Part shown: positions 339 to 17,618 of the stretch, piece by piece
How positions within the stretch are numbered: position 1 is the stretch's first letter
Layout: the number at the start of each line of letters is the position of its first letter
Notes under the pieces: model-generated
What the model was told of the DNA's origin: nothing
What the model saw: the letters and a program-made list of their open reading frames with translations, nothing else
Databases searched by the model: none
From: Candidatus Iainarchaeum sp.
Lineage (GTDB): Archaea > B1Sed10-29 > WALL01 > JAGHAM01
DNA: 17,618 bases
NCBI GenBank assembly: GCA_021161465.1
Contig: JAGHAM010000028.1
Span: 1-17,618, forward strand
Direction of reading: 5' to 3'
Program-made: the position numbers and the translations under genes

Positions 339-359
339 ATTACACCGAGGGTTACACCA

Positions 360-560: not shown

Positions 561-565
561 AAAGT

Positions 566-2597: not shown

Positions 2598-2620
2598 GTT
2601 TTTACCTTATACCCTTCTTC

Positions 2621-2630: not shown

Positions 2631-2710
2631 TTTAGCTGTTACTCTCGTATAGGTGATACAAAGCACAAGGTATTTAGGCTTGAAATCCCAATATTGGTAC
2701 AGGTGGTAAG

Positions 2711-3415: not shown

Positions 3416-3419
3416 TGAC

Positions 3420-4136: not shown

Positions 4137-4720
4137 AGCTAATATACCATGGGGCTGAAGCTGAGCTGTGGCTGGACACATACCTTGGAGAAAAAGTGGT
4201 GCACAAAAGACGCGTTCCAAAGCCTTACAAGCATCCCTCTCTTGACGAAAGTCTTAGAGCCAGCCGGACAAAGAATGAAGCTAGGATACTTTCAATGGCA
4301 AGGAGTGCTGTGCAGACACCACATGTCTACGGCTTAAGTGGGTACGAAATCACGATGGAGTTTGTAGATGGTGAACGTGTGAAAGAATTGTTTTACAGTG
4401 GGAAAACGCACGTAGCGCGTAGGATAGGCCATGACATACGCAAAATGCATGATATTGATATAATCCACAATGACTTAACCACCTCCAATATGATTCTCTC
4501 AGGAAGAGATTTATTCTTCATAGACTTTGGATTAGCAAGAGTGTCCAGTGAGCTTGAAGACAAAGCAATGGATCTTGTGGTGTTCAAGAAAATGTTATCA
4601 TCAACCCATTATGATGTCTTTGATAGGATTTGGGGTAAAGTGCTTGATGGATATCATGCCGATGAGACTATCAAAAAGAGGATAGGTGAAATAGAAAAAA
4701 GAGCGAAGTATACGAGGTGA
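4133..4720 (+). CDS. bud32: KEOPS kinase/ATPase subunit Bud32, stand-alone
   Basis: Bud32 is the small atypical kinase of KEOPS that activates Kae1 and supports t6A formation. At 195 residues it has the family's minimal architecture: invariant Lys in VVHKRRVPK (K25), Glu in KNEARIL (E49), catalytic loop HNDLTTSN (D114, N119), metal-binding IDFGLA (D131), and a basic C-terminal tail (KKRIGEIEKRAKYTR) used for ATP handling in KEOPS. The family usually has HGD where HND is seen. Many archaea fuse Bud32 to Kae1; here it is separate although both are on the same strand within 4 kb. The ATG at 4133 overlaps the preceding stop and follows GGTGA. Its stop lies inside the Shine-Dalgarno of the next gene. 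Confidence 0.96.
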   Translation: MKLIYHGAEAELWLDTYLGEKVVHKRRVPKPYKHPSLDESLRASRTKNEARILSMARSAVQTPHVYGLSGYEITMEFVDGERVKELFYSGKTHVARRIGHDIRKMHDIDIIHNDLTTSNMILSGRDLFFIDFGLARVSSELEDKAMDLVVFKKMLSSTHYDVFDRIWGKVLDGYHADETIKKRIGEIEKRAKYTR

Positions 4721-4725
4721 AAAAT

Positions 4726-5280
4726 ATGATTTTCGTGACCAGCAATACATACAAGTTCAAGGAAGCCCAGCAGATAATGAGCATCAAGCTAAAGCAAAGC
4801 CATATAAATGTCCCAGAGATTCAGTCGGATTCCATAACTGAGATAGCTGCAGAAAGCGCGAGATATGCTTACGAGCAACTAGGCGAGCCATGCTTCGTTG
4901 AGGACTCAGGATTGTTTATACATGAACTTCATGGCTTCCCGGGACCTTACTCAAAGTATGTGTATTACACGATAGGTCTTCATGGAGTACTGAAAATTAT
5001 GGCTGGAAAGAGGAATAGGGGCGCGGAGTTCCGGTCTGCTGTAGCGTATGTGGACTCATCTGGCGTCAAAACATTCCTTGGAAGGGCTTATGGTGAACTA
5101 GCAGAAGAGCCACGTGGCTCTGGTGGATTTGGATACGACCCCATATTTATCCCCCTAAAAAACACAAAAACATTTGCGGAAGACCCTGAGTACAAAAACA
5201 AAGTCTCGCATAGGCAACACGCCCTAAAACAGCTGGCAGATTACCTATCGATTGGAGAAAAACCAAGCAAACATTTATAA
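4726..5280 (+). CDS. rdgB: XTP/dITP diphosphatase (RdgB/HAM1 family)
   Basis: This enzyme hydrolyses non-canonical purine triphosphates (XTP, ITP, dITP) to monophosphates and cleans the nucleotide pool. Family signatures are in order: N-terminal FVTSNTYKFKEA, the metal-binding FVEDSGLFIHELHGFPGPYSKYV block, GFGYDPIFIP, and the C-terminal SHRQHALKQL. I chose the ATG at 4726 (184 residues) over the upstream GTG at 4717 because GAGGTGA at 4714-4720 is a near-perfect Shine-Dalgarno five bases before it, and the family normally starts just before FVTSN. The SD overlaps the bud32 stop, so the genes are coupled. The bud32-HAM1 neighbourhood is common in archaea. Confidence 0.96.
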   Translation: MIFVTSNTYKFKEAQQIMSIKLKQSHINVPEIQSDSITEIAAESARYAYEQLGEPCFVEDSGLFIHELHGFPGPYSKYVYYTIGLHGVLKIMAGKRNRGAEFRSAVAYVDSSGVKTFLGRAYGELAEEPRGSGGFGYDPIFIPLKNTKTFAEDPEYKNKVSHRQHALKQLADYLSIGEKPSKHL

Positions 5281-5282
5281 AG
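5273..5282 (+). promoter_or_regulatory. TATA-like box upstream of rps15
   Basis: ATTTATAAAG overlaps the end of the XTP pyrophosphatase gene. It would place the transcript start near 5300-5308 and give rps15 a leader of about 50 bases, long enough to carry a regulatory structure, though no clear hairpin is seen. Confidence 0.5.
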
Positions 5283-5353
5283 CTCATGGCATCAAATAAT
5301 AACACTTCCCTCTACGCCTTCGCACGGATCAACCTCATTTTCCAGTGATGAAT

Positions 5354-5809
5354 ATGGCTAGAATGCATGCAAGAAAAAAAGGAAAAAGTGGCTCTAGAAA
5401 GCCGCAAATGAAGAATCCCCCAAGGTGGGTAGATATGACTAAGAAGGACTGTGAAGAACTAGTCTTAAAGCTGGCTAGAGAAGGGAAAAGTGCAAGTGAT
5501 ATAGGACGTATTTTAAGAGATGTCCATGGTGTTCCAGATGTTAAATCCATAACTGGTAGAAGCGTGACAGGCATTCTAAAAGAGAACAAGTTAGCCCCAG
5601 ATTTGCCAGAGGATTTCATGAATCTTATAAAAAAAGCTGTGAATCTGAGAAAGCACCTTGAAAAGAACACAAAGGACCTACACAACAAAAGGGGTTTGGC
5701 ACTCATAGAATCAAAAATCAAGAGGCTACAGAAGCACTACAAAGAAAAGCACGTGCTACCGGAAGACTGGTACTACAACCCTGAAACAGCAGCACTGTTG
5801 GTGAAGTAA
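5354..5809 (+). CDS. rps15: 30S ribosomal protein S15 (archaeal S15P/S13e)
   Basis: S15 binds 16S rRNA in the platform of the small subunit. The protein has the archaeal/eukaryotic N-terminal extension (MARMHARKKGKSGS, then RWVDMTKKDCEELVLKLA), followed by the core that includes NLRKHLEKNTKDLHNKRGL, IESKIKRLQKHYK and the ending LPEDWYYNPETAALLVK. I set the start at the ATG at 5354 (151 residues) because the family starts MARMH and GTGAT at 5345-5349 works as its Shine-Dalgarno; ATG 5348 and GTG 5345 are less likely. Its TAA overlaps the ATG of a small ORF, and rps3ae follows, a ribosomal-gene arrangement found in many archaea. Confidence 0.97.
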   Translation: MARMHARKKGKSGSRKPQMKNPPRWVDMTKKDCEELVLKLAREGKSASDIGRILRDVHGVPDVKSITGRSVTGILKENKLAPDLPEDFMNLIKKAVNLRKHLEKNTKDLHNKRGLALIESKIKRLQKHYKEKHVLPEDWYYNPETAALLVK

Positions 5810-5934
5810 TGCGGACCTATAGCATAAAAGCCACAATTGATAAAAAACAAATTAAAGGGCGATATGGGTTGTTGGAACTCATAGGAAAACTTGAGAGAGT
5901 GGTAAAATGGCAAGGAAAAGGAAAAAGAAAGTAG
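5809..5934 (+). CDS. Possible 41-residue ORF coupled to rps15
   Basis: The ATG at 5809 shares its first base with the rps15 TAA (TAATG), a typical coupling arrangement. The frame runs 41 codons to TAG at 5932, overlapping the first 28 bases of rps3ae. The product is very basic (begins MRTYSIKATIDKKQIKG and ends KGKRK) with no recognised motif. In several archaea this slot between the S15 and S3Ae genes holds KEOPS subunit Pcc1 (about 80 residues), but I see no clear Pcc1 sequence. It could be an eroded gene or simply the S3Ae leader. Confidence 0.25.
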   Translation: MRTYSIKATIDKKQIKGRYGLLELIGKLERVVKWQGKGKRK

Positions 5935-6494
5935 ATACCTGGAAAGCCAAAAAATGGTATTCCATAGTTGCTCCAGGATGCTTCAACGAGAAGGAACTTG
6001 GCGAAACGCCGGTGGCAGAGGCAGAGTCTTTAGTGGGAAGGACCATAAAGATGAGTCTAGGGGAAATCACAGAGAAGAGGTCACAATACCAAACAAGCCT
6101 TATATTTCAAGTTTATAAAGTGGAAGGTAACAAAGCCTACACTGAGATTAGAGGCCATGAGATAAAGAGAGGATACATTGGAAGGCTTTCCAAAAGGATG
6201 CGTTCCGTAGTACGGACTATTTTTAATGTAGAGACTAAGGATAAGAAAATCGTCCAGATGCAGACAATCTGCTTGGCAAAGGTGAAGATGGATAGGGAGC
6301 AAAAGAAAGCTATCAGAGAAACTGTAATTGAGGTCGCAACCAAGGAAGCAAAGAAGACGAACCTTGATAAGTTCTTCCAGGAAGTAGTGTTTGGAAAGAT
6401 ATCAACAGAGATTTTCGCGAAAGTGAAGAAAATATTCCCTGTCATAAGGATGGAAATCACCAAAACCAAAGTAACAAGTGAAACCAATGATTGA
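5907..6494 (+). CDS. rps3ae: 30S ribosomal protein S3Ae (eS1)
   Basis: eS1 is an archaeal/eukaryotic small-subunit protein near the mRNA exit. The family pattern is clear over 195 residues: basic N-terminus MARKRKKKVDTWKAKKWY, then IVAPGCFNEKELGETPV, GRTIKMSLGEIT, and FQVYKVEGNKAYTEIRGHE followed by RSVVRTIFNVETKD. The start at 5907 follows a GTGGT element. The C-terminal end overlaps the DUF92 gene by several bases. It is complete and undamaged. Confidence 0.97.
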   Translation: MARKRKKKVDTWKAKKWYSIVAPGCFNEKELGETPVAEAESLVGRTIKMSLGEITEKRSQYQTSLIFQVYKVEGNKAYTEIRGHEIKRGYIGRLSKRMRSVVRTIFNVETKDKKIVQMQTICLAKVKMDREQKKAIRETVIEVATKEAKKTNLDKFFQEVVFGKISTEIFAKVKKIFPVIRMEITKTKVTSETND

Positions 6495-7176
6495 TTCTAC
6501 CTTTGTGCTTGAAGCAATAATCCCCATCGTGATTGGCTTTTCAGCGTATTACCTAAAATCTCTGGATGCTGCTGGTTCACTGGTGGGAACGGCAATTGGC
6601 CTTGTGATACTTGCCAGAGGGTTTGAATGGTTCATAGTTTTCCTAACGTTTTTTGTATTGGGCATGATAGCAACCAATTATCGTGTGTCAGAGAAGCTAA
6701 AATACGGGCTTGGACAAAAACGAAGAGAAACTGAAAATGTGCTTGGAAATGGGCTTGCTGCCTTAATTTTTGCTCTAACTGGGAACGTGTATGGGTTTTT
6801 TGGTGCAGTGGCAGCCGCAACATCTGACACCATCTCTTCTGAGATAGGCATACTATCGAAGAAATCCCCTGTATCCATCCTGAATTTCAAGACTAAAGTA
6901 AAAAGAGGCTCAAATGGGGGCGTAACAAACCTTGGCAACTTGTTTATGTTTCTTGGATCGGGATTAATCGGGATACTTGGTCTGTTGCTATTCAATAATT
7001 TCTTGCTTTTCTGGGTTGGCTTCTGGTCTGGCATATTTGGGTGTATAGTTGATTCTATACTGGGCGCAACCCTCGAGAACAAAAAAATCATAGGCAACAG
7101 CACAGTAAATTTCCTGTCAACTCTGATTGGCGGTAGCTTTGCATTCCTACTGTCCATTTTGTTCCAATTGCCATAG
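6487..7176 (+). CDS. DUF92 family membrane protein
   Basis: This integral membrane protein has about six or seven hydrophobic segments over 229 residues. Family marks are LDAAGSLVGTAIG near the N-terminus, a central GNGLAALIFAL, the ATSDTISSEIG block, and GSNGGVTNLG with GCIVDSILGATLE towards the C-terminus. Family members include plant VTE6, a phytyl-phosphate kinase; the archaeal role is not settled, though an activity on an isoprenoid phosphate at the membrane is a reasonable inference. I prefer the ATG at 6487, which overlaps the rps3ae stop, over the GTG at 6478. Confidence 0.9.
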   Translation: MIDSTFVLEAIIPIVIGFSAYYLKSLDAAGSLVGTAIGLVILARGFEWFIVFLTFFVLGMIATNYRVSEKLKYGLGQKRRETENVLGNGLAALIFALTGNVYGFFGAVAAATSDTISSEIGILSKKSPVSILNFKTKVKRGSNGGVTNLGNLFMFLGSGLIGILGLLLFNNFLLFWVGFWSGIFGCIVDSILGATLENKKIIGNSTVNFLSTLIGGSFAFLLSILFQLP

Positions 7177-7190
7177 TGCATAAAGAAAAA

Positions 7191-7199
7191 CTTATAAAA
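7191..7199 (+). promoter_or_regulatory. TATA box for the KaiC-like gene
   Basis: CTTATAAAA lies about 35 bp before the ATG at 7230 and predicts a start of transcription near 7220, just ahead of the GTGGTAG ribosome binding site. This argues that the earlier GTG at 7176, which lies upstream of the TATA box, is not the translation start. Confidence 0.6.
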
Positions 7200-7229
7200 G
7201 AGACACGTGTTAGTCTACCAGTGGTAGCT

Positions 7230-7913
7230 ATGGAACGGATTAAAACACACATCACCGGACTGGACAACATAATCGAAGGTGGCTTCCCGAAGGGAAGCAG
7301 CATCCTGCTAAAAGGCAAACCAGGAACAGGAAAAACCATATTTGGTCTTCAGTTCCTATACAATGGATGTGTAGAAGGGAATGAAGCAGGAATGCTCATC
7401 CAGATAGAGGAATTTGATAAAACCCTGGAATGGTACGCTAACATCTTTGGGTGGGACCTTGGTGGATGCCAGGGAAAGGGGAGATTGGCAATTTTCTCTT
7501 TCAAGCCCAAAAGTTATGAAAAGTTCCACCCAGCTAAGCTGGAGGGAGAGTTCCTCGGAAAGCTTGGCAACATAATTGAATCGATGAAAGTAAGCAGGAT
7601 AGTACTTGACTCAATAACACCAATGGAAATCGCACTTAACAGCTCTGCGGACTATAGAAGGAGTTTCTATGAAACTGTTGATTTTCTCAAGGGAAGTGGG
7701 GCAACAAGCTTAGTAATCTGCGATGAGAAGCAAGAGGACCTGTTTGACGCGGAAGAGCATATTTGTGATGGTGTGATAAAGTTACGCCAGGCTGAGGATG
7801 GGAAACAAAAAGAGCTTAGGGTAACAAAAATGGCCGCCACAAATTTCTCTGCAAAGTGGTACCCTGTTACAATAAATTCCAAGTTGGGGTTCACTGTAAA
7901 GCCATTTGTTTAG
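7230..7913 (+). CDS. KaiC-like RecA-superfamily ATPase (single domain)
   Basis: This is a 227-residue one-domain relative of KaiC/RadA, a group common in archaea with mostly unknown signalling or regulatory roles. It opens with the family phrase GLDNIIEGGFPKGSSILL, then Walker A GKPGTGKT (29-36), FLYNGCVEGN, the IQIEE segment, Walker B in RIVLDSITPM, and a C-terminal LRVTKMAATNFSAKWYPVTI resembling the KaiC phosphosite-loop region. The start at ATG 7230 is chosen because TATA and SD sites sit just upstream. It ends the (+) gene series, 38 bases before tRNA-Gln. No effector domain is fused to it. Confidence 0.9.
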   Translation: MERIKTHITGLDNIIEGGFPKGSSILLKGKPGTGKTIFGLQFLYNGCVEGNEAGMLIQIEEFDKTLEWYANIFGWDLGGCQGKGRLAIFSFKPKSYEKFHPAKLEGEFLGKLGNIIESMKVSRIVLDSITPMEIALNSSADYRRSFYETVDFLKGSGATSLVICDEKQEDLFDAEEHICDGVIKLRQAEDGKQKELRVTKMAATNFSAKWYPVTINSKLGFTVKPFV

Positions 7914-7919
7914 ATACTT

Positions 7920-7929
7920 TTTTTAAATG
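7920..7929 (+). promoter_or_regulatory. Probable TATA element of tRNA-Gln
   Basis: TTTTTTAAAT, just after the KaiC-like stop, is centred about 27 bases before the mature tRNA 5' end, the usual archaeal spacing. A second TATAAAAT at 7937-7944 is too close to the tRNA to be the main box. Confidence 0.45.
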
Positions 7930-7971
7930 TATGGAGTATAAAATAACTGATAGCCCCGTGGTGTAGCGGCC

Positions 7972-7998
7972 AGTTCGCGCCTAGGTGCGAATCCGCAA
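7972..7998 (+). other. tRNA-Gln intron 1 (D-loop, 27 nt, BHB)
   Basis: The junctions form a textbook bulge-helix-bulge. Exon GCGG (7966-7969) pairs with intron CCGC (7993-7996) as the 4-bp central helix. Three-base bulges CCA (7970-7972) and AAA (7997-7999) flank it on opposite strands, and GTTCGC (7973-7978) pairs with GCGAAT (7987-7992) as the inner helix. Cutting after the second base of each bulge gives exactly this interval. Confidence 0.88.
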
Positions 7999-8037
7999 AA
8001 TCATACTGGCCTTTGGAGCCAGTGACAGCGGTTCGAA

Positions 8038-8204
8038 AAAGGGTTGCACCTCTTTACGCCTGCAGGGATTGCTCCGCAATCCTTCTGTATAAACAAACTG
8101 CCTTGTAAACAGGGTTGCTAAAGGAGTAGGATAAGAGAGGGCGGCATCTGATGCAGCTGCACAAACCTTTGTATTAACATCGGTGCACCCTTTTAGGGAG
8201 AAAC
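8038..8204 (+). other. tRNA-Gln intron 2 (T-loop 59/60, 167 nt)
   Basis: It interrupts TTCGAA-T in the T-loop. The ends pair with each other: AAAGGGTTGCACC (8038-8050) with GGTGCACCCTTT (8182-8193), with one bulged T. The T-stem forms the exon helix, T54-T55-C56 can pair with GAA (8200-8202), and ACT (8203-8205) serves as the 3' bulge, so the splice motif is a relaxed one. The interior contains a perfect 7-bp hairpin, GGATTGC-TCC-GCAATCC (8067-8083), and further pairing, but no open reading frame. No C/D-box pair is evident. Confidence 0.8.
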
Positions 8205-8218
8205 TCCGCTCGGGGCTA

Positions 8219-8713
8219 CTACTTTCTTGTGCGCTTCTTTATGGTAGTCCCATCCAGTTTTAATATAAGTAGGTAAATCCCAAGAACCAGCAAAACACTC
8301 AGCATCCAGAAGGTGTTATGCAAAACCTCAATCAGCTCACCACCCAAAGAAAGTGTTGCAGTGACCCTAAACACATTCCATAAAATCGCCAGCGGAAAGA
8401 ATGCCGTTATATAAGTTAGCTTTCGCTTCTCCTTTTTCATGGGTGTTGCATACAGCAACCCTGCAAATATCGAAAAAGAAACAACACCTGTGCAGGATGT
8501 TATTATAGTAAAGCTAGAGCCACCAAGAGTTATCGTCAGCCCAGAAAGAGAAACAGGCAAGCTTAACATGGCAAGTAGCATAAAAGAAGAAACAGCGACA
8601 AACTGCCGTAAAGGCAATAACAAACCAAAGAATAGGTCAACAGCGTGGAAGAACAAATAAAGTATTGAGAACACAAGAAAAAATTTACCAAGAAACTCCT
8701 TCATACTTACCAT
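8219..8713 (-). CDS. Archaeosortase/exosortase family protein
   Basis: Archaeosortases are membrane cysteine transpeptidases that cut C-terminal sorting signals of surface proteins and, in known cases such as haloarchaeal ArtA, lead to attachment to a prenyl lipid. The 164-residue protein is almost wholly hydrophobic, with about five membrane spans, and shows the catalytic set in order: Cys in SCTGV (C74), Arg in WNVFRV (R116) and His in VLHNTFW (H132). It is shorter than typical exosortases and close to small archaeal versions. I keep the ATG at 8713, which overlaps the carS stop, because GGGAG lies four bases upstream; ATG 8704 is the alternative. It is the last gene of a three-gene operon. 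No obvious substrate with a sorting tail is in the window. Confidence 0.85.
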   Translation of the reverse strand: MVSMKEFLGKFFLVFSILYLFFHAVDLFFGLLLPLRQFVAVSSFMLLAMLSLPVSLSGLTITLGGSSFTIITSCTGVVSFSIFAGLLYATPMKKEKRKLTYITAFFPLAILWNVFRVTATLSLGGELIEVLHNTFWMLSVLLVLGIYLLILKLDGTTIKKRTRK

Positions 8714-9234
8714 GGAACTCCCTTTAACTGTAATTTGAAAGCTACATAATTAGATGCTATGTGTATGAAAGGTGTCACAACTAAGATAGTTAGCACCATC
8801 AGCAAGCTAGGCAAGACCACAAAATCTTTGAATATGTAAACCATCAGGAGCGCGCCAAATATGAAATCCCATTGGTCAAGTAGTGGCGTTGCCTGACCGC
8901 GCTTTAAGTCAAACCTGCGCTTCACAAAAGACCCAAGGGAGTCACCAAACATAGCGCCAAAGGCCAATAACAAAGCTAATGATACACCCTCCATTGAGAA
9001 ACCCCCAAAATTGGGATACCCAAAAAGAGATTGGACAACGCCCGCCAAAAAGCCAAATAAAACTCCGGAAAAAAAACCTATTAGTGTCTTGCCTTTGCCA
9101 AGAAAGGGCCGCCCATCCAAAAACTTAACCCCATGGTCTAGTGGATATTTCCCATGTATCACCACTGCTGAGGCGTTTGCAACGTAAGCAGGCAGGATAT
9201 ACCATAAAGACCAGATTAAAAGGTCTAAAATCAT
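8707..9234 (-). CDS. carS: CDP-archaeol synthase CarS
   Basis: CarS transfers CMP from CTP to 2,3-bis-O-geranylgeranylglyceryl phosphate, making the activated precursor of archaeal phospholipids. The 175-residue membrane protein has the expected four or five spans and family motifs: YILPAYVANASAVV near the N-terminus, PLDHGVKFLDGRPFLGKGKT in the first cytoplasmic loop, GAMFGDSLGSFVKRRFDLKRG with the conserved Asp, and LLDQWDFIFGALL. It follows the unknown gene 9237-10166 by two bases and its stop overlaps the archaeosortase-like start, so all three are probably cotranscribed. Confidence 0.95.
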   Translation of the reverse strand: MILDLLIWSLWYILPAYVANASAVVIHGKYPLDHGVKFLDGRPFLGKGKTLIGFFSGVLFGFLAGVVQSLFGYPNFGGFSMEGVSLALLLAFGAMFGDSLGSFVKRRFDLKRGQATPLLDQWDFIFGALLMVYIFKDFVVLPSLLMVLTILVVTPFIHIASNYVAFKLQLKGVPW

Positions 9235-9236
9235 AA

Positions 9237-10166
9237 CTAGCTTTTTGTAGAAACTAGTTTAAATTCTTGGTGTGGCTTCCCTATTTTCCCAGTTTCATGC
9301 TTCCTGGCCTGCTGTTTCAGCCTAAGTTCTGGAGACACCTCTGGGTCCTCCTTGGTACCGAGAACTTCCAGAACATATTTCTTTGGCTTAAGGCCTAATT
9401 TCTCCATCAGAAGCCTTTCTCTAAGCGTTGTTTTTCTTATTTTTCCTTTAACCGTGCCATTAAAATGTATTGTTTTGTGGAAGGACGCATCCATCAGGGA
9501 GTCGTTGTGATGTTCCTTCATTTTATAGTGTTGTATTGCCTTCAAAAAACTTTTATGATTCTTTAATGAGCTCAAGTCTATAATCTCTGCTGGTAGCCCA
9601 CCCTCTCTCTTAAGTTTTTTGAAGAGTACTTTCAGGTCCTTAACCTTCTTGAGCCAGGGTAGTTTTATTTTGCCTTTCTCCTCCAGACCCCGCAGAAATT
9701 TTTTGGTGTAGTCCAGCTCACCATCCGCTGAGGGTATAATATCAGCTGACATTTTGTAGTTGTATCGCCTCAGGGCAATCAGGTTATCCAATGGCCGCCC
9801 ATCCTCTGCGTGGATTGCATACGGTGTGAAAACTGTCACTGGAACAGCCTCGCTTCCGGGGGAGGTTACTATTGGCTCGTTTGATAGGAAAAGTCTGGGC
9901 TTCCCAACCTTCTCCACCAGAGAACCTTTGTTTTCCAGAACGCCCTCTATTGACACTCTTATCTTATTCTTGTGCAGCCAGCTTAACTTCTTCTCGTTGT
10001 TAAGCTCACTTGGCATAAGCGAGATTTCCCTTATCCTCCCGCCGTTATCAGCAAAAATCTTCCCAATGCTTGGCAAATCAAAGCCTAGCCTACGAATGCC
10101 ACTAAATAAGTCACCTTTATGCTCTTTTGGTCTCCTTGGCCCTCTTGGTTTCTTCCTGGGTGGCAT
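9237..10166 (-). CDS. Uncharacterised 309-residue basic protein
   Basis: I do not recognise this protein. It starts with a Pro/Arg/Lys-rich tail (MPPRKKPRGPRRPKEHKGD), has no membrane segment, and is rich in Lys throughout. A region around residues 90-150 reads like a beta-rich domain (RLFLSNEPIV, VPVTVFTPYAIHAEDG), and the rest looks helical and charged. The basic tail suggests nucleic-acid or ribosome contact, but that is inference only. It is first in the operon with carS and the archaeosortase-like gene; its promoter gives a near-leaderless message. Codon use and length look like a real, undamaged gene. Confidence 0.8.
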   Translation of the reverse strand: MPPRKKPRGPRRPKEHKGDLFSGIRRLGFDLPSIGKIFADNGGRIREISLMPSELNNEKKLSWLHKNKIRVSIEGVLENKGSLVEKVGKPRLFLSNEPIVTSPGSEAVPVTVFTPYAIHAEDGRPLDNLIALRRYNYKMSADIIPSADGELDYTKKFLRGLEEKGKIKLPWLKKVKDLKVLFKKLKREGGLPAEIIDLSSLKNHKSFLKAIQHYKMKEHHNDSLMDASFHKTIHFNGTVKGKIRKTTLRERLLMEKLGLKPKKYVLEVLGTKEDPEVSPELRLKQQARKHETGKIGKPHQEFKLVSTKS

Positions 10167-10190
10167 GCTCTTGTTTTGTATCAGCTAATC

Positions 10191-10200
10191 TATTTAAATA
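10191..10200 (-). promoter_or_regulatory. TATA box of the unknown-carS-archaeosortase operon
   Basis: TATTTAAATA is centred about 29 bp upstream of the ATG at 10166, predicting transcription to begin within a few bases of the start codon. The interval up to 10277 is a divergent promoter region; CATTTAAGG near 10237-10245 may serve the (+) genes. Confidence 0.6.
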
Positions 10201-10276
10201 TTATACATTTAGTAACCTTACAGTAGTTACAAAATCATTTAAGGATAACCCGCACAAACTATTGTGAGGGGAAAAT

Positions 10277-10429
10277 ATGAAATTTAAAGACACGTGTCCG
10301 ATATGCTTTACAGAATCTGGCTATTCTGTTCCATTGAAGTACCTGGGGAATGGGATATACCAGTGCCAAAGGGATGAATCCCACAAATTCAAAAGAGATG
10401 AGAACGGCTTCTGGAAGAAAGTCATATGA
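10277..10429 (+). CDS. Small zinc-ribbon-like protein (50 aa)
   Basis: This 50-residue ORF starts at ATG 10277 after a strong GAGGGG site and ends at 10429, overlapping the dtdA start (ATGA). The N-terminal CPIC (residues 7-10) and a later C-x5-H (YQCQRDESH) could form a single zinc site, as in small archaeal zinc ribbons. The remainder is polar and Lys-rich. The tight overlap, good ribosome binding site and conserved-looking Cys spacing make it likely to be real. Its partner and role are unknown; coupling to dtdA hints at a translation or tRNA-related job. Confidence 0.7.
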   Translation: MKFKDTCPICFTESGYSVPLKYLGNGIYQCQRDESHKFKRDENGFWKKVI

Positions 10430-11214
10430 AGGCAATAGTATTCTCAAAGAAAGATACCGCAGGGAAGAACATCGCCAAAGCACTCATCCAAAAAGGCTTT
10501 CACGAAAACGGGAAAACCTTCAGTGGCTCCCCCATCTACGAGAACAAGGACCTGCTGCTTTTCTCCATTGAAGAAGAGGCTATATTTGGCGACAGCCTAA
10601 ACGATTTCATCATGGAATATAACCCAGAGCTGCTTGTTGTTGCCTCAAAACACAAGTCAGAAAGTGGCAGACCTACTTTAAGTGTGCACCCAACAGGCAA
10701 CTATCACGAAGCAAAGTACGGGGGAGAGCCAAAAACACTTCAAGCAACAAATGCAAACGCTATGAGAAATGTCTTTTTGTATCTACTGAACGAAACGCCA
10801 AAGGGATATGAATTATCCCTTGAGGCAACGCACCATGGGCCTACAGATATCAGAGTGCCCTTATTTTTTGCTGAGGTTGGGTCAACAGAAAAGCAATGGC
10901 AAGATTTAGAAGCTGCTGATTTCCTGGCTGAGGCCATACTAAATGGCCTAGAAAGTAAAGAGGAGGCAGAGGCAGTCATTGGTTTTGGTGGAGGGCATTA
11001 CTGCCCAACATTCACAAAAATGGAAAGTGAGGTAGCATTTGGTCACATCTGCCCAAAGTACTCAGTTGACTTTATAGATGTAGCCTTGGTGAAACAGATG
11101 GTAGAGCAAACAACCGATGGTGTTAAACATGCAATACTTGATGAGAAAGGTCTGAAAGGCCGCCACAAAACATTGATAAAGGATATCTTAGACGAAGTTG
11201 GTGTTGATTACTAA
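10426..11214 (+). CDS. dtdA: D-aminoacyl-tRNA deacylase DTD2 (GEK1 family)
   Basis: DTD2 removes D-amino acids wrongly loaded on tRNAs; it is found in archaea and plants in place of bacterial Dtd. Its 262 residues match the family length and signatures: SGRPTLSVHPTGNYHEAKYGGEP, LSLEATHHGPT, FAEVGSTEKQWQD and GFGGGHYCPTF, with the conserved histidines. The ATG at 10426 overlaps the stop of the zinc-ribbon gene. The TAA at 11212-11214 is followed without any break by the reading frame of the HD-domain protein, in the same frame. Confidence 0.96.
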   Translation: MKAIVFSKKDTAGKNIAKALIQKGFHENGKTFSGSPIYENKDLLLFSIEEEAIFGDSLNDFIMEYNPELLVVASKHKSESGRPTLSVHPTGNYHEAKYGGEPKTLQATNANAMRNVFLYLLNETPKGYELSLEATHHGPTDIRVPLFFAEVGSTEKQWQDLEAADFLAEAILNGLESKEEAEAVIGFGGGHYCPTFTKMESEVAFGHICPKYSVDFIDVALVKQMVEQTTDGVKHAILDEKGLKGRHKTLIKDILDEVGVDY

Positions 11215-11226
11215 GGGGGATTTTCC

Positions 11227-11793
11227 ATCAAAGCCATAATACAAGAGATTGAAAGTTCAGCTAAAAAACTTCTGGGAGAGGACTACCTTCATGGCTGGGA
11301 GCACACACAGAGGGTTAGAAGGTTAAGTGTCAGGATAGGCAAAGTTGAAGGAGCGAACCTAGAAGTGCTTGAGATTGCAGCCCTACTACATGACGTGGCG
11401 AGAGGCCATGAGAACTCAAACCTGCATCACGCAGTAAAAGGAGCTGAAATTGCAAGAGAACTGCTGACTGCCAGAGGCTACCATAAGGTTAATGAAGTTA
11501 TCCATTGCATTGAAGCCCATAGCTTCTCTGGTGGTGTGGAACCAAAAACGCTTGAGGCAAAAATAATCCAGGACGCCGACCGGCTAGATGCCATAGGCGC
11601 TATAGGGATTGCAAGATGTTTTGAATACCATGGGAAGTATGGGGGAGAGCCAATAGCACACTTTCAAGAAAAGCTCCTAAAGCTGAAAGACCTAATGCAC
11701 ACAGAAACCGCAAGAAGACTTGCTGAAGAAAGGCATAGGTTTATGGTAGAATTTCTAGACCGACTTGATAGAGAGGAAAAAGGGCTGTTATAG
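11227..11793 (+). CDS. HD-domain phosphohydrolase with no normal start codon
   Basis: The protein belongs to the HD superfamily of metal-dependent phosphohydrolases, resembling the small YpgQ/YedJ-type group likely to act on nucleotides. Visible metal ligands are H in HGWEHTQRV, HD in ALLHDVA, and D in IIQDADRLDAIGAIG, with the family end CFEYHGKYGGEP. The frame is open back to the dtdA TAA, yet no ATG, GTG or TTG lies before HGWEH; the first, GTG at 11365, would delete the first metal-binding His. A Shine-Dalgarno-like GGGGGA (11215-11220) stands six bases before ATC AAA GCC at 11227, which looks like a start ATG changed to ATC. I set the start there. Translation from ATC, readthrough of the TAA, or a sequence error are the options. 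Confidence 0.8.
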   Translation: MKAIIQEIESSAKKLLGEDYLHGWEHTQRVRRLSVRIGKVEGANLEVLEIAALLHDVARGHENSNLHHAVKGAEIARELLTARGYHKVNEVIHCIEAHSFSGGVEPKTLEAKIIQDADRLDAIGAIGIARCFEYHGKYGGEPIAHFQEKLLKLKDLMHTETARRLAEERHRFMVEFLDRLDREEKGLL

Positions 11794-11810
11794 TCTTACA
11801 CACATAACTC

Positions 11811-11819
11811 ATTATAAAC
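11811..11819 (+). promoter_or_regulatory. TATA box of tRNA-Leu
   Basis: ATTATAAAC is centred about 30 bases before the mature 5' end of tRNA-Leu, the expected archaeal position. Confidence 0.6.
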
Positions 11820-11864
11820 CAGAAAAACAAAAAATAAGAAAAGCGCAGGGGTTCCGGAGCGGTC

Positions 11865-11897
11865 AAAGGTCTTCTTGCATCAGCAGGAGAATCGCGC
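11865..11897 (+). other. tRNA-Leu intron 1 (D-arm, about 33 nt)
   Basis: A CAAA repeated at both junctions leaves the exact cut uncertain by a few bases, but every choice gives the same spliced tRNA. In the drawn version, exon GCGG (11859-11862) pairs with intron TCGC (11892-11895, one G-U), with bulges TCA and GCA. The interior forms a hairpin, TTCTTGC with GCAGGAG. The splice motif is therefore a relaxed BHB. Confidence 0.72.
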
Positions 11898-11947
11898 AAA
11901 CGGGCAAGGTTCAGGGCCTTGTGGCTTAGTGCCTCCGCGAGTTCAAA

Positions 11948-12112
11948 ATAAGGGGCACCTACGGTTCCCCCTTATAAGCCCCTTCCCTTAATGGGATGGA
12001 AAGCAGTAAGGGTGTTAGGCGTTCCTTATAAGCCCCCTCCCTTAATGGGATGGAAAGCAGTAAGGGTGTTAGGCGTTCCTTATAAGCCCCCTCCCTTAAG
12101 GGGGGTGGAGAC
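11948..12112 (+). other. tRNA-Leu intron 2 (T-loop 59/60, 165 nt)
   Basis: It interrupts TTCAAA-T at the same T-loop site as in tRNA-Gln. The sequence can fold as four consecutive hairpins: ATAAGGGG/CCCCTTAT (11948-11975), two copies of CCCTTA...TAAGGG closed by GCC/GGC, and a last C-rich/G-rich stem around TTAA near 12085-12108. ACT at 12111-12113 is the 3' bulge, and the T-stem is the exon helix. No open reading frame is contained. Confidence 0.78.
11964..12100 (+). repeat. 54-nt tandem repeat, about 2.5 copies, inside a tRNA intron
   Basis: CTTATAAGCC recurs at 11971, 12025 and 12079, exactly 54 bases apart. Copy 1 (11964-12020) has three extra C and one T/C change, copy 2 (12021-12074) is complete, and copy 3 (12075-12100) is cut off by the intron end. 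Each complete unit encodes one long hairpin. Confidence 0.9.
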
Positions 12113-12147
12113 TCTCGCCCCCTGCACCACAAGATTTTAATAGCAGG

Positions 12148-12156
12148 TATTTTAAA
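12148..12156 (+). promoter_or_regulatory. TATA box of the DUF1648/SdpI gene
   Basis: TATTTTAAA is centred about 29 bp before the ATG at 12181, so the message is probably leaderless; no Shine-Dalgarno is seen. Confidence 0.55.
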
Positions 12157-12180
12157 CGCTAGCAGGCACAATTACAGTTA

Positions 12181-12840
12181 ATGCAATCGAGACATGTTTG
12201 GATTGTAGCCGTCCTATTGGTACTCCTATCTATAAGCATGGCTGTCTTTGCTTATTATGAGATACCTGGGGATAGGATAGCTTCCCACTGGAACGCCCAA
12301 GGGGAAGTGAATGGGTATATGAGCAAGCTGTGGGGTCTGTCACTATTCCCAATCGGCTTAGCCGTTATCTGCTTGATTTTCTTGATAATTCCCAGAGTAG
12401 ACCCCCTGAAAAGAAACATCAAAAAATTCAGGAATTACTATGATTTATTCTTGATTGTAACGCTGTTATTCCTTCTTTACATACAAGGGCTTACTACAGC
12501 ATGGAACATTGGCTTTGCCTATGACATGACTTTTGCAATAGTGCCAGCCACTTCTGTTCTGTTTTATGTAACTGGTGTTCTTATGGAACACGCCAAGCGC
12601 AACTGGTTTGTTGGCATTAGAACCCCATGGACCTTAAGCAGTAATGTTGTATGGCGCGAAACTCACAAAGCAGGAGGCAAGTGGTTCAAGATCCTTGCTG
12701 TATATATGCTTTCACTCTTGCTGCTCGGAAATGTTCTAAAGGATTATTTCATCATACTGTTTTTGGTGCCTACACTCGGCGTTGCTTTTGGACTGTTCGT
12801 GTACTCCTATTGGTTATACTACAACCTGAAAAAGGACTAG
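12181..12840 (+). CDS. DUF1648/SdpI-family membrane protein
   Basis: This 219-residue protein has about six membrane segments and both family motifs: the DUF1648 loop IASHWNAQGEVNGYMSK (about residues 38-54) and the SdpI-type loop WFVGIRTPWTLSSNVVWRETH (about 141-161). Bacillus SdpI gives immunity to the SdpC toxin and sequesters its repressor; archaeal members have no proven role, so immunity or signalling is only a possibility. The gene stands alone between tRNA-Leu and the convergent panE, and both genes end inside the same CTAG (12837-12840). Confidence 0.9.
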   Translation: MQSRHVWIVAVLLVLLSISMAVFAYYEIPGDRIASHWNAQGEVNGYMSKLWGLSLFPIGLAVICLIFLIIPRVDPLKRNIKKFRNYYDLFLIVTLLFLLYIQGLTTAWNIGFAYDMTFAIVPATSVLFYVTGVLMEHAKRNWFVGIRTPWTLSSNVVWRETHKAGGKWFKILAVYMLSLLLLGNVLKDYFIILFLVPTLGVAFGLFVYSYWLYYNLKKD

Positions 12841-13661
12841 GGTAAGTATGTTCCTTCCACGCTTTTTATCTCTCCTGTAATCCGCACATTCTCTGGTGTC
12901 TCCACACCCACCAATCCCCCAAGGACACACACAGCACCATTTAGGTAATCTATCTCTGTTTTCCTGCCAGCTTCAATATCCTGCAGCATCGAGCTCTTGT
13001 TCTTCCCCGTCATACGCGCAACTTGAATTGCCTTATCAAACACCAAACCTGGTTTTGCTCCAAGACCACTAACCAAAACGGCTTCCTCAACAAGTCGTCT
13101 CATCCTCCCCCTAAGTCCTTTGTCCTTAACCAGCTCACCGTTCCTTTTGCCCGTGACCGCACCAAGGGCATTAATGCCAACATTTACAAAGAACTTCTCC
13201 CATAGTAATCCACCGATATGTTTGACAAGCTTAACATGAAGTCCTCCCTTTTCAAGCTCTTTGGCAATTTTGCCTGAACTGTTAACATCATGTAGAAAGA
13301 GCACACCCTCAGCGGTGACTGTTGACTCTATGTCACTAATCCTAGTTGCAGCATATGTTGTGACTCCCCTTAGCGCCCCATCGATATGAAGCAGACCATT
13401 TTGGATAGCAACCACAGGTGTATGCGGATTGTACTCTCTGATGGTTTCAAAAGTTTTCAATGCATCGTACGCTTTTGTCGTAAGAATGAAAAAATCAACA
13501 TCCTCTGCCTCAGCCAGTTTGACAGTTGCGTCAAACTTATCCTGCAAAGCAACAGCCTGCTCCTCCCGTCTACAAACCAGTAACACTTCTTGCCTTTTGC
13601 TTAGTATAGATGCAAACGCAAGCCCTAAAGCGCCAGCACCAACTATAGCAATCCTTGCCAC
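12837..13661 (-). CDS. panE: 2-dehydropantoate 2-reductase (ketopantoate reductase)
   Basis: PanE reduces ketopantoate to pantoate with NAD(P)H in pantothenate/CoA synthesis. The Rossmann motif IAIVGAGALGLAFA is at the N-terminus; TTKAYD and IQNGL follow, then the catalytic-domain block WEKFFVNVGINALGAVTGKRNGEL with its conserved Lys and Asn, and SSMLQDIEAGRKTEIDYLNG. I chose the GTG at 13661 (about 274 residues): it overlaps the upstream stop by one base (TAGTG), follows a GGTGGG site and places the Rossmann strand right at the N-terminus. The ATG at 13682 would add seven residues. It follows the HPS-RraA gene in one operon. It is slightly short for the family but no motif is missing. Confidence 0.93.
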   Translation of the reverse strand: MARIAIVGAGALGLAFASILSKRQEVLLVCRREEQAVALQDKFDATVKLAEAEDVDFFILTTKAYDALKTFETIREYNPHTPVVAIQNGLLHIDGALRGVTTYAATRISDIESTVTAEGVLFLHDVNSSGKIAKELEKGGLHVKLVKHIGGLLWEKFFVNVGINALGAVTGKRNGELVKDKGLRGRMRRLVEEAVLVSGLGAKPGLVFDKAIQVARMTGKNKSSMLQDIEAGRKTEIDYLNGAVCVLGGLVGVETPENVRITGEIKSVEGTYLP

Positions 13662-14956
13662 TAACCCACCACTTTCTCCCATTTCTTAAGCTTAACTACT
13701 TTGGATAGAGTACTTCCACGCTTTATCTCTTCGCGAATCCTATTCTCCTGCTCACGCACATTCATAGCCCTGTTTGCTATCTCTTGAGCGCGCTCAGCTG
13801 GCACCACCACAACACCGCTATCATCGCCAATAACCCAGTCGCCGTTCCTGACCGTAAGACCATCACACTTTATCTCAGCACCAATCTCACCGAATCCTTT
13901 TGGCTCCCCTGCGTTCGGGACAAAATGCCTTGCAAAAACTGGGAAGCCCATCTGTAGGATATCCTCAACATCCCTAGCAGCTCCATCTATGACAACACCT
14001 GCTATGCCCTTTTTCCTGCAACTCCATGATGCTAATTCCCCCCAAACAGCATCTGAGCCACTACAGGCATCTATTACTATCACATCACCCTTCTTGGCTA
14101 TGTCTATTGCTTCGACTGGCTTTGCCCAATCGCCATTGTAAGTCCTAACTGTGAGCGCCCTCCCAACCATTTTGTATCCAGTTTTCAATGGCCGTATGTT
14201 TGGCATCGCGCCCTTGCGATGCATGGCATCACTTATGTTGGATGTAGAAACCCTTGAAAAAACAGTGTAAAGCTCATCTCTTGAATACTTCTTGTATAAC
14301 TCTGTTGGTATCGCCTTATGTTCTGATATGGCTTTTTTAAGTTTTTTAACCTCTTCAGTCACGTTGGCTGCCTTAGTTATGGCACCGCCAACTATAATTA
14401 TGCTGGCTCCAGCTTCAACAGCAGCGGCCACGGTTTCTGTGTTTAGGCCACCTGCTGCAGCTACAGGGATGGTAACTGTTTTTGCTATCTTACGGACGGT
14501 GTCCAAAGGGTTCTCACCCTTCATTTGCTGGTCTATCCCAACATGTACACATATTGCATCAACCCCAAGGGCCTCGACTTCCTTAGAACGGTTGACCTTA
14601 TCCTCAACACCAAGTACATCGACAACGACTTTTGAACCATATTTTTTTGCTGCCCTGACGGCCTCTGAAATTGTCCCATCATCTGATATACCGAGTATTA
14701 TGCAAACCTGGGCGCCTGCCTTAGATGCCATCTCAACCTCAACACCACCAACATCTGCAGTTTTCAAGTCGGCAACTATAGTTTTATCTGGAAATTTCTT
14801 CTTCAAAGCCCGAACACTTTCCATGCCCTCGCTCTTTATCAAGAGTGTACCTGCCTCAATCCAGTCTACGCCACCAGCTACTGCTTCCTCGGCTATCTGC
14901 AAAGCTCTGTGTAAGTTCATCAAATCAAGAGCCAACTGCAAAACTGGTTTATCCAT
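13661..14956 (-). CDS. Bifunctional 3-hexulose-6-phosphate synthase / RraA-like protein
   Basis: Residues 1 to about 210 form a 3-hexulose-6-phosphate synthase barrel (LQLALDLMN, VDWIEAGTLLIKSEG, IVADLKTAD, and a phosphate-binding AAGGLN and IVGGAIT). Residues about 225-431 form an RraA/HMG-aldolase-like domain (SNISDAMHRKG, GDVIVIDACSGSDAVWGELAS, GVVIDGAARDV, the last with the family's Arg-Asp). Such fusions are known in archaea. In archaea the synthase usually runs towards ribulose 5-phosphate plus formaldehyde, supplying pentoses; the RraA-like part is of uncertain role. The ATG at 14956 follows a GCAGGT site. panE follows with a one-base overlap, so they are coupled. Confidence 0.94.
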   Translation of the reverse strand: MDKPVLQLALDLMNLHRALQIAEEAVAGGVDWIEAGTLLIKSEGMESVRALKKKFPDKTIVADLKTADVGGVEVEMASKAGAQVCIILGISDDGTISEAVRAAKKYGSKVVVDVLGVEDKVNRSKEVEALGVDAICVHVGIDQQMKGENPLDTVRKIAKTVTIPVAAAGGLNTETVAAAVEAGASIIIVGGAITKAANVTEEVKKLKKAISEHKAIPTELYKKYSRDELYTVFSRVSTSNISDAMHRKGAMPNIRPLKTGYKMVGRALTVRTYNGDWAKPVEAIDIAKKGDVIVIDACSGSDAVWGELASWSCRKKGIAGVVIDGAARDVEDILQMGFPVFARHFVPNAGEPKGFGEIGAEIKCDGLTVRNGDWVIGDDSGVVVVPAERAQEIANRAMNVREQENRIREEIKRGSTLSKVVKLKKWEKVVG

Positions 14957-15067
14957 AAGACCTGCCCCGCCTTTCAGTTATCTTCGTCTTAGTATTAATA
15001 GGTTATATCGCTGTTAGACGAATTTTTCAGAGTAAAGATAATAACCAAGTGGGAAGAAAAATAAACC
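14957..15067. promoter_or_regulatory. Divergent promoter region between the HPS-RraA/panE and CoA operons
   Basis: This 111-bp AT-rich gap separates the two divergent operons. TATTAATA-like sequence near 14993-15000 could be the TATA element for the minus-strand operon. No strong palindromic operator is visible. Confidence 0.35.
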
Positions 15068-15802
15068 ATGAAGATACCAAAAACCCACCCAAGATACAAA
15101 TCTCTCCTCCAAAGAGAGAAACTGATAGAAGGTGTAGAGAATGGTGTTACTGCCACCGCAGGTCTGATTGCGCAGGGTAGGGGTGAAGCTTTTGATTACC
15201 TCATAGGGGAGAGAACAACCGAAAATGCAAGGAAAGCCATAAGAGCTGCAGTTGCCAAACTCCTACTGGCTAAGCACCCGGTTTTGTCCATAAATGGCAA
15301 CGTTGCCATGCTTGCACCTGATGACTACATAAAACTAGGAGAAGTTTTAGACGCCCCAATCGAGATTAACCTGTTTTACAAAACACCAGAGCGCGTTGAT
15401 GCTATAAAGGCCCTCCTGCACGAGCATGGTTGCAAGAACCTGCTCTTTGGGGATAACACCCGCATACCCACTGAATCTGCCAGGGGATTTGTTGATTCCC
15501 GCGGACAAGGCATAGCGGATGTTGTGCTCGTTCCGCTTGAAGACGGTGACAGGACAGAAGCCCTGAAGAAAGCAGGGAAGTTCGTCATTGCAATAGACCT
15601 AAATCCCCTCTCCCGAACAGCACGCAAAGCAGACATCACGATAGTAGACAACATAGTGCGCGCCCTGCCACTAATGATTAAATACGCTGAAGGTTACAAA
15701 AGCCGAGGAGTTCCAAACATAGAATTCAACAATAGAGAGAACCTCATGGGGGCAATCGCCTTAATAAAGGAGAGGCTTGCTGATGAAACAATTCTCGATT
15801 AA
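15068..15802 (+). CDS. 4-phosphopantoate-beta-alanine ligase (archaeal phosphopantothenate synthetase)
   Basis: This enzyme joins 4-phosphopantoate to beta-alanine with ATP, the archaeal replacement for bacterial pantothenate synthetase and pantothenate kinase. At 244 residues it fits the family, with PKTHPRYKSLLQREKLIEG at the start, LIAQGRGEAFDYLIGE, the core LSINGNVAMLAP, LFGDNTRIPTESARGFVDSRG, and VIAIDLNPLSRTA with TIVDNIVRALPLM. The gene overlaps coaBC by 20 bases, and panE lies just across the divergent promoter, so most of the CoA route from ketopantoate is grouped here. Pantoate kinase is not in the window. Confidence 0.95.
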   Translation: MKIPKTHPRYKSLLQREKLIEGVENGVTATAGLIAQGRGEAFDYLIGERTTENARKAIRAAVAKLLLAKHPVLSINGNVAMLAPDDYIKLGEVLDAPIEINLFYKTPERVDAIKALLHEHGCKNLLFGDNTRIPTESARGFVDSRGQGIADVVLVPLEDGDRTEALKKAGKFVIAIDLNPLSRTARKADITIVDNIVRALPLMIKYAEGYKSRGVPNIEFNNRENLMGAIALIKERLADETILD

Positions 15803-16973
15803 GTCTGTGAAGTCAAAATCCCTACTAGGCAAGAAAATAACACTCTGTATCAGCGGAAGTGTTGCCTGTGTCAGGGCTCCAGAATTAGCACGAGAGCTCA
15901 TCCGACACGGAGCTGAAGTGGCTGCAGTAATGAGCGAAAGCGCGCAGAAACTTATAAGTCCGGACCTCCTACAATGGGCCACAGACAGAGAGGTTGTTTC
16001 CAAGCTTACAGGTAGGATAGAACATGTTAGGCTGGGGGCATACTCTGACATGGTTCTTGTCTGCCCAGCCACTGCAAATACCATATCTAAGATTTCCTGT
16101 GGCATAGATGACACACCAGTAACCAGCACTGTCAGCTGCGCACTTGGAGCGGGAGTTCCTGTGATGCTTGTGCCTGCAATGCACTCCAGTATGTATAACC
16201 ATCCTATAGTTAAAGAAAATCTGGGAAAGCTGAAAAGCATAGGCGTAGCTGTCATAAACCCCCACATCGCTGAGGGGAAAGCCAAAATAGCTGAAAATGA
16301 TGAGATAGTAAAGCGTGTCATCAGTACCTTGACGCCAAAAGACTTAGCTGGCCTGAAACTTGTGATAACTGGCGGACCGACCTATGAGCGCATCGATGCT
16401 TGTAGGGGGATAATAAACCAGAGCTCCGGCAAGATGTCCTGTGCAATAGCCGCCAATGCCTCAGCCAGAGGCGCGGAGGTAACGTTGGTGTATGGTCCAG
16501 CCAGAGAGGAACCTCCCTCAAATGTAAAATTGATTAAGGTTACTGGGGCAAGAGAGATGATTGAAAAAACCATGGATGCCATCAAAAGTGCAGATGCACT
16601 CATATCAGCAGCAGCAATAGCAGACTACTCACCAATCAGCGTTACAAACGGAAAGCTTGAGTCAAGAAAAGACTTAAAGCTTGAGCTCAAGAAAAACCCA
16701 AAGCTCGTCGCCCTTGCCAAAAAGAGATTCCCGGAGAAACTTGTTGTCGGCTTCAAGCTTGAGGAAACAATCAGAGAGGACAAGGCTCTTGAGTGTATCA
16801 AAGAGAGTGGGATAGACCTTATGGTTGCCAATTCAACAAAAACCATAGGTGCCAACAACGCTGAAGCTGTAATAATGGATGTTAAAACAAAAACGCGCGT
16901 AAATGGGACAAAAGCAGAGGTAGCAAAGGAAATACTGGATGCCCTAAAGAGTAAATGGAAGAAGCAAAAGTAG
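15783..16973 (+). CDS. coaBC: Bifunctional phosphopantothenoylcysteine decarboxylase / phosphopantothenate-cysteine ligase
   Basis: CoaBC adds cysteine to 4'-phosphopantothenate and decarboxylates the product to 4'-phosphopantetheine. The N-terminal flavoprotein (CoaC) half shows CISGSVACVRAPELARELI, the His in RIEHVRLG, the FMN-site PATANTISKI, and PAMHSSMYNHP. The bacterial substrate-flap Cys region reads AEGKAKI as in archaeal members. The CoaB half shows LVITGGPTYERID, ISAAAIADYSP and the Lys-rich KKNPKLVALA, with FKLEE. I take the ATG at 15783, following GGAGAGG, rather than the TTG at 15777; this gives 396 residues. It is translationally coupled to the preceding ligase gene. Confidence 0.96.
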   Translation: MKQFSIKSVKSKSLLGKKITLCISGSVACVRAPELARELIRHGAEVAAVMSESAQKLISPDLLQWATDREVVSKLTGRIEHVRLGAYSDMVLVCPATANTISKISCGIDDTPVTSTVSCALGAGVPVMLVPAMHSSMYNHPIVKENLGKLKSIGVAVINPHIAEGKAKIAENDEIVKRVISTLTPKDLAGLKLVITGGPTYERIDACRGIINQSSGKMSCAIAANASARGAEVTLVYGPAREEPPSNVKLIKVTGAREMIEKTMDAIKSADALISAAAIADYSPISVTNGKLESRKDLKLELKKNPKLVALAKKRFPEKLVVGFKLEETIREDKALECIKESGIDLMVANSTKTIGANNAEAVIMDVKTKTRVNGTKAEVAKEILDALKSKWKKQK

Positions 16974-16998
16974 GGGAAGAGCCCAAAGAGTATAGGGA

Positions 16999-17618
16999 CT
17001 ACTCTCCCATCTGCTCTTTCACTATCTTATCAATCAGCTCAAGGAACTCATTCTTGTGCTTTGGGCTTATGCGCGCGCCTGCTGCTATGTTGTGGCCACC
17101 GCCTTCTCCACCAACTACCTCACAAGCCTGTTTCATAGCCTTCCCAAGATGCAGCCCCTTGTTGACTAACATCCAGTTAGCCCTGCCAGAAACTTTAAGC
17201 ATACCTTCCTCATCTATTGCAAGCGCGATTATTGGTTTTCCCTGACCTGCAACCTTGCTGCCATACAGCATTCCAGCAATCACACCAACTAGGGTGTCTT
17301 TGATGTGCGTTCCAGCATCCAGGATATAAATGTGCTCCATCTCATCCAAACCTTTCTCTTTGGCAAACTCTATCCCATCACGGAGCATTCTCCTGTGCTT
17401 CTGCAACAACAACTCTGCTCTGTGATAATATTCACCCCTATCACCCATGCAAACTTTTATCCCAATAAGCCCCTCCTCATGCCTACCACAAGCATTAAGG
17501 AGTGTTGCATATTCGCGCGCATCTCTTAGGGGTGTCTTAGGTTGCTCTTTAAGAAGCTCATAAACCTCTCCCACAAGATTTCTCAAGAGGAATTCTGGAA
17601 TAAAATTCTTCTTCCCAA
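16999..17618 (-). CDS. GAN/RecJ-like DHH-DHHA1 nuclease, C-terminal part (5' end outside window)
   Basis: The open frame runs to the window edge, including sequence before the first TTG at 17586 (FIPEFLLRN), so the N-terminal DHH catalytic domain is missing only because the window ends. What is visible is the DHHA1 domain of the archaeal RecJ-like family: PKTPLRDAREYATLLNACGR, a middle helical part (ELLLQKHRRML), ISGRAN-like KVSGRANW, and the diagnostic GGEGGGHNIAAGARI near the end. Members include GAN, a GINS-associated exonuclease of the replisome, and other archaeal RecJ-like exonucleases; which subgroup applies cannot be told from this part. It converges on coaBC with 25 bp between stops. 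Confidence 0.92.
   Translation of the reverse strand, partial: GKKNFIPEFLLRNLVGEVYELLKEQPKTPLRDAREYATLLNACGRHEEGLIGIKVCMGDRGEYYHRAELLLQKHRRMLRDGIEFAKEKGLDEMEHIYILDAGTHIKDTLVGVIAGMLYGSKVAGQGKPIIALAIDEEGMLKVSGRANWMLVNKGLHLGKAMKQACEVVGGEGGGHNIAAGARISPKHKNEFLELIDKIVKEQMGE

Follow-up and report, generated by a model that had tools for sequence, protein, structure and literature searches.

A putative protein-spliced T-loop intron of an archaeal tRNA-Leu(CAG) gene, probably grown by duplication of a 54-nt hairpin module

Introduction

Transposition of introns among tRNA genes is known from Thermoproteales (PMC4090602, PMC4033280). According to reviews, splicing endonucleases of the alpha4 type are strict for the canonical motif and their hosts have few introns (PMC4090602, PMC6379350); for relaxed introns the enzyme has to be of the (alpha-beta)2 or epsilon2 type or to possess a CSL/ASL loop (PMC6379350). 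The subject of the present analysis is the T-loop intron of a tRNA-Leu(CAG) gene of Candidatus Iainarchaeum sp. (assembly GCA_021161465.1), which lies in a stretch of 17,618 nucleotides, called the window in the following (contig JAGHAM010000028.1, positions 1 to 17,618 of the forward strand). With a probability of about 0.8 this is a protein-spliced archaeal T-loop intron that has grown by duplication of a 54-nt module and whose cassette has spread among tRNA genes. It would then be a single stage in a process by which tRNA introns have spread and lengthened across the genome.

The genome, designated G000, is an archaeal draft of 976 kb in 40 contigs (93% complete) and is the one strain of its species that the analysis covered. 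It was sampled at tRNA neighbourhoods and at search matches, and the counts of T-loop inserts refer to the 36 complete tRNA genes read in it; the search across genomes covered 30 other archaeal genomes. ARAGORN and Rfam both miss intron-bearing tRNA genes here, including tRNA-Leu(CAG).

A tandem repeat inside the intron

The first-pass annotation, made from the letters of the window, had placed an intron in the T-loop of a tRNA-Leu gene, and its boundaries proved exact (Table 1). The most likely insertion site is between tRNA positions 59 and 60, 58/59 being possible. Excision of the intron in silico leaves the T-loop TTCAAAT, the T-stem pairs and 7 of 7 acceptor stem pairs. Inside the intron, Tandem Repeats Finder (TRF) detects at 11970-12103 a repeat with a period of 54 nt, 2.5 copies, 97% matches and a score of 254, far above chance expectation. 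Together with the near-identity of the two full copies this bears out the precise duplication that had been claimed, and the partial third copy at the intron boundary was likewise found. The single base separating copy 2 from copy 1 is the base of the partial third copy, as expected of a recombinant or hybrid, at this one site only.

By sequence the T-loop introns of the genome are of two types, which share a common architecture: hairpin 1, a TAAG or AAA linker, hairpin 2 and then TGRR. Type A introns, to which the intron of tRNA-Leu(CAG) belongs, start with ATAAGG and type B introns typically with AAGAAGGGTTGCACC. Read against this architecture, the 54-nt unit would consist of hairpin 2 and a degenerate hairpin 1 (TAAGG...CCTTA), that is, of one intron module in shifted register. 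Four hairpins following each other had been proposed for the intron. Of this proposal hairpin 1 stands, as it is supported by three compensatory pair changes. The serial arrangement is one of several near-equal folds: in the minimum-energy fold each unit is nested inside a longer hairpin (-69.6 kcal/mol), and a fold in which hairpin 1 is forced to be independent is 3 kcal/mol dearer (-66.6 kcal/mol). Across the A-short introns the pairing of hairpin 1, the H helix and the T-stem amounts to 98.9%, and the covariation score of this structure exceeds those of all 500 shuffles and of all slid versions. In folding predictions the pairing of the T-stem is unchanged for 0 to 4 units (0.92-0.95), which agrees with a tolerance of unit number.

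Unit number and mosaic introns in the genome

How could the intron have acquired its repeat? Type A introns occur in 14 tRNA genes of G000, exclusively in T-loops, and contain no unit in nine genes and two units in Leu(CAG); the sister introns of four genes (Leu(CAA), Lys(CTT), Arg(TCG) and Arg(CCT)), at about 95% identity, contain one unit. The suggestion that the unit could expand or contract thus finds its counterpart in the 0, 1 or 2 units of paralogous introns within one genome. In the sister introns CCTTATAAGCCC already stands as a direct repeat on both sides of the single unit, a substrate for slippage; in one or two genes CCTTATCAGCCC replaces CCTTATAAGCCC on one side. Moreover, all five A-long introns have an identical hairpin 1 and tRNA-specific 3' ends. 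The introns of Arg(CCT) and Arg(TCG) combine the 5' cassette of Leu and Lys with a 3' end that is 86% identical to that of Arg(TCT), which itself has a different hairpin 1 and zero units. Such a mosaic of shared 5' cassette and tRNA-specific 3' end is what recombination or gene conversion from one tRNA gene to another would leave if the breakpoints lay in the sequence that the genes share. The search of 30 other archaeal genomes yielded no clear type A intron, the one match being of 20 bases in genome G003 (E 0.007).

Type B is present in G000 with more than 20 module copies, its introns contain 1, 2, 3 or 4 modules each, and it has relatives in several further genomes of the class, also in anticodon loops. 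The assembly breaks at the T-loop intron of a Ser-like tRNA (contig ends C20, C25 and C34; loci L087, L162 and L085). The type B introns of the two Ser-like genes that continue from there are nearly identical but have two and three modules, respectively, a second case of a change in module number, and their downstream flanks differ. In tRNA-His (L075, G000:C40:31256-31407) type B modules occupy both the anticodon loop and the T-loop. Further type B modules are located about 2 bases past the discriminator base of tRNA genes (L061, L063, L071), outside the mature tRNA, and a shorter hairpin is found 3' of tRNA-Ile (L059). Type B modules in anticodon loops and downstream of tRNA 3' ends make insertion a likely further route for this type. 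In G011 (L184) and G012 (L046) hairpin sequence is inserted next to tRNA-Leu genes, and behind it the tRNA 3' end is repeated, as integration or a local duplication would leave it. G012, which belongs to another family of the class, also has four tRNA genes whose T-loop introns are nearly identical (L174, L183, L188, L192), a second case of intron spread. A viral origin was considered and rejected, the exact type A and type B core patterns being absent from viral contigs.

The favored course of events is as follows. The splicing endonuclease would cut on both sides of the short helix formed by T54-A57 and TGRR near the 3' end of the intron, whereupon the exons would be ligated. The region between hairpin 1 and the 3' strand would be loosely constrained, so that extra hairpin modules are tolerated and the number of units may be neutral. 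Slippage or unequal recombination, acting on the CCTTATAAGCCC direct repeats, would have duplicated the 54-nt module, and the type A cassette would have spread over the 14 tRNA genes, probably through recombination or gene conversion with GGTTCAAAATAAGG and CCTTATAAGCCC as anchors. Apparent intermediate stages are found together in G000: one cassette without a unit, with one unit and with two, mosaic introns whose breakpoints are clear, and the Ser-like pair one module apart.

Splice motif and splicing endonuclease

At least 31 of the 36 complete tRNA genes have an insert at this one position of the T-loop. Insert lengths range from 13 to 321 nt, and the intron of tRNA-Gln(TTG) is of type B and differs in sequence, so that its agreement in length with the tRNA-Leu(CAG) intron within 2 nt, which the first-pass annotation had remarked on, is a coincidence. 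In 27 of 31 introns the 3' end can pair fully over 4 bp with T54-T55-C56-R57 (TTCR:TGRR), compared with 4.1% of shuffled introns, in a count that allows two registers with a 3- or 4-nt bulge. In addition, intron removal has a unique solution with complete acceptor and T-stem pairing in each of 35 genes. Judged by sequence, TTCR:TGRR is the expected central helix of the splice motif of a 59/60 intron. Beside it lies a 3' bulge of 3-4 nt and no intron-side helix is apparent, suggesting a splice motif of the relaxed hBH kind.

Some points weigh against the protein-spliced, module-grown intron proposed here. ViennaRNA gives the TTCA:TGGA helix in the Leu(CAG) intron a probability of 0.01-0.02 and prefers a shorter TC:GA register; the unit varies too little in the five A-long introns for covariation; and the 134-nt repeat rests on a short-read assembly in a draft of 40 contigs.

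Which enzyme would remove these introns? The one splicing endonuclease found in G000 (Table 1) is alpha4-like and has no insertion (CSL/ASL loop) relative to 1a79. With two Pfam models no second subunit was found in G000 or G001, a missing gene being possible in G000 at 93% completeness, and most relatives in the class likewise show one endonuclease gene. The substrate rule for relaxed introns calls for a second subunit or a specific loop, and neither was found in G000. As a lead, G000 may therefore be an exception to the alpha4 rule, provided that the draft misses no second subunit. A more far-reaching idea, which is put forward tentatively and has the odds against it, is that a family of hairpin modules specific to tRNA loci spreads and multiplies in the T-loop introns of nearly all tRNA genes under a lone alpha4-like enzyme that lacks the loops held to be necessary for relaxed introns, and that the enzyme or the modular fold of the intron uses a recognition rule that has not been described. 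G000 also offers a test of the rule by which alpha4 enzymes accept strict motifs alone, and these at the anticodon position: under it, at least 31 of the 36 tRNA genes would have to rely on other means.

The tRNA-Leu(CAG) locus and further features

Besides the T-loop intron, tRNA-Leu(CAG) has a D-loop intron, the boundaries of which are uncertain by up to 3 nt due to AAA repeats. The gene order HD protein, tRNA-Leu, SdpI-like protein (protein names by inspection) is shared with the relative G001 (L019). In the orthologous syntenic tRNA-Leu(CAG) of G001 the T-loop intron is B-like and the D-loop is uninterrupted, suggesting that the intron content at this site was replaced or separately gained. 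Coordinates are collected in Table 1, which also lists a second tandem repeat of the window.

Table 1. Features of the tRNA-Leu(CAG) gene and its introns, and features used for comparison. Positions are those of the window unless a locus is named.
Feature	Position	Strand	Remarks
tRNA-Leu(CAG), two introns	11845-12126	+	acceptor GCAGGGG/CCCCTGC, anticodon stem-loop CAAGG-TTCAGGG-CCTTG, T-stem GCGAG/CTCGC
Genomic CCA directly 3' of tRNA-Leu(CAG)	12127-12129		
D-loop intron, about 33 nt	11868-11900	+	comparison with Leu(TAG) and Leu(TAA) of G000, both without it
T-loop intron, type A, 165 nt	11948-12112	+	same site occupied in 30 other tRNA genes of G000
Hairpin 1 (TAAGGGG...CCCCTTA)	11949-11974	+	3 compensatory pair changes, 97.9% paired cells across A-short introns
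54-nt unit, copy 1	11970-12023	+	
Degenerate hairpin 1 within unit 1 (TAAGGgtgttaggcgttCCTTA)	12007-12028	+	sequence and folding; putative module
54-nt unit, copy 2	12024-12077	+	53/54 identical to copy 1
Degenerate hairpin 1 again	12061-12082	+	
Partial third copy, 26 nt, begins terminal hairpin 2	12078-12103	+	
Terminal hairpin 2 (CCCCCTCCCTTAAGGGGGG)	12087-12105	+	
Predicted 3' splice-site strand (TGGA-GAC, then T)	12106-12112	+	complement of T54T55C56A57
tRNA-Gln(TTG)	7952-8218	+	D-loop insert; also missed by ARAGORN
T-loop intron of tRNA-Gln(TTG), type B, 167 nt	8038-8204	+	comparison only
24-nt tandem repeat, 2.2 copies	16652-16705		within coding region 15777-16973
Splicing endonuclease, PF01974/PF02778, 170 aa	L109:1474-1986 (G000:C16)	-	full-length alignment with M. 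jannaschii enzyme 1a79

Alternative explanations

Could the modules be a mobile element of tRNA loci, small and non-autonomous, the tandem copies being the result of repeated insertions? Such an element would enter T-loops, anticodon loops and 3' trailers as a unit, either as DNA by a tRNA-targeting integrase or as RNA by reverse splicing. Integration of mobile elements has been proposed as a source of tRNA introns (Sugahara 2012, PMC3293823), and the distribution of the modules would be consistent with it, as type B modules are found not only in T-loops but also in the tRNA-His anticodon loop and, in three tRNA genes, immediately behind the discriminator base, and other families of the class have related modules in T-loops, anticodon loops and trailers. 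All model matches with E <0.05 are at tRNA loci, as far as they were read, and the repeated tRNA 3' end behind the inserted sequence in G011 and G012 points in the same direction. The breakpoints of the type A mosaic, however, lie inside the introns in shared sequence, which fits recombination and not insertion of whole units; furthermore, neither a mobility gene linked to the modules nor a target-site duplication around the 54-nt unit was seen. Repeated insertion is a possible but doubtful explanation of the tandem copies. That the true intron contains a single unit, and the repeat was produced by the assembly, is considerably less probable. The presence of the unit in five tRNA genes can confuse an assembly and several contigs do end in such introns, but the two copies differ at one base, both copies in Leu(CAG) have the variant GTGTTAGGCGTT where the sister genes have GCGTTATGTGTT, and the array is short (134 nt), with the contig running through it into the gene order common with G001.

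The spacers of the units had also been read as archaeal TATA boxes, by which the intron would carry internal promoters driving transcription within the tRNA. By eye CTTATAAG is TATA-like, and the tRNA-Val gene of G000 has CTTATAAAA upstream. A TATA matrix was derived from 29 tRNA upstream regions of G000 with boxes 27-35 nt before the tRNA; a first, unconstrained motif search had landed on A-rich sequence and was discarded. With this matrix CTTATAAG scores 2.6 bits, below all 29 tRNA TATA boxes (3.1-9.1), a level that is reached at about 1.2% of the positions in the window. Moreover, CTTATAAG is forced by the TAAGG/CCTTA arms of hairpin 1 and the TAAG linker, occurs in nearly every type A intron and is located in GC-rich transcribed sequence. 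A scan of the region for sigma-70 promoters and terminators yielded nothing. A promoter function of the intron is thus highly improbable, and this part of the first-pass annotation is abandoned.

Comparison with known systems

Duplication of a module within a spreading T-loop intron remains the preferred account of the Leu(CAG) repeat, and its closest parallel is found in Thermoproteales. In both, a tRNA can have several introns, a large proportion of the tRNA genes is interrupted, near-identical introns occur in different tRNA species (in G000 type A in 14 genes and type B with over 20 module copies), and the same intron, here type B, is present at more than one tRNA position. G000 differs in belonging to another lineage with small genomes of about 1 Mb, in having the T-loop as one dominant site (at least 31 of 36 genes), in introns built of countable repeat modules, and in an endonuclease that is alpha4-like and not (alpha-beta)2.

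Non-canonical archaeal introns at position 59/60 have relaxed bulge-helix-bulge motifs (PMC4090602, PMC6379350), and the site in G000 as well as the predicted geometry of its 3' bulge and helix fit the hBH-type motif, albeit with hairpin 2 where the intron-side helix would be. The disruption of tRNA genes by mobile elements in Caldiarchaeum (PMC3293823) resembles the situation described here in the heterogeneous intron content at tRNA loci and in the duplications of tRNA 3' ends beside inserted sequence in the relatives G011 and G012; it differs in that no recombinase gene was seen beside the modules of G000 and that the inserts are hairpin arrays of 13-321 nt. The kind of phenomenon is thus known from Thermoproteales, and what G000 adds is modular growth, introns whose modules can be counted, mosaics, a new lineage and an unexpected type of enzyme.
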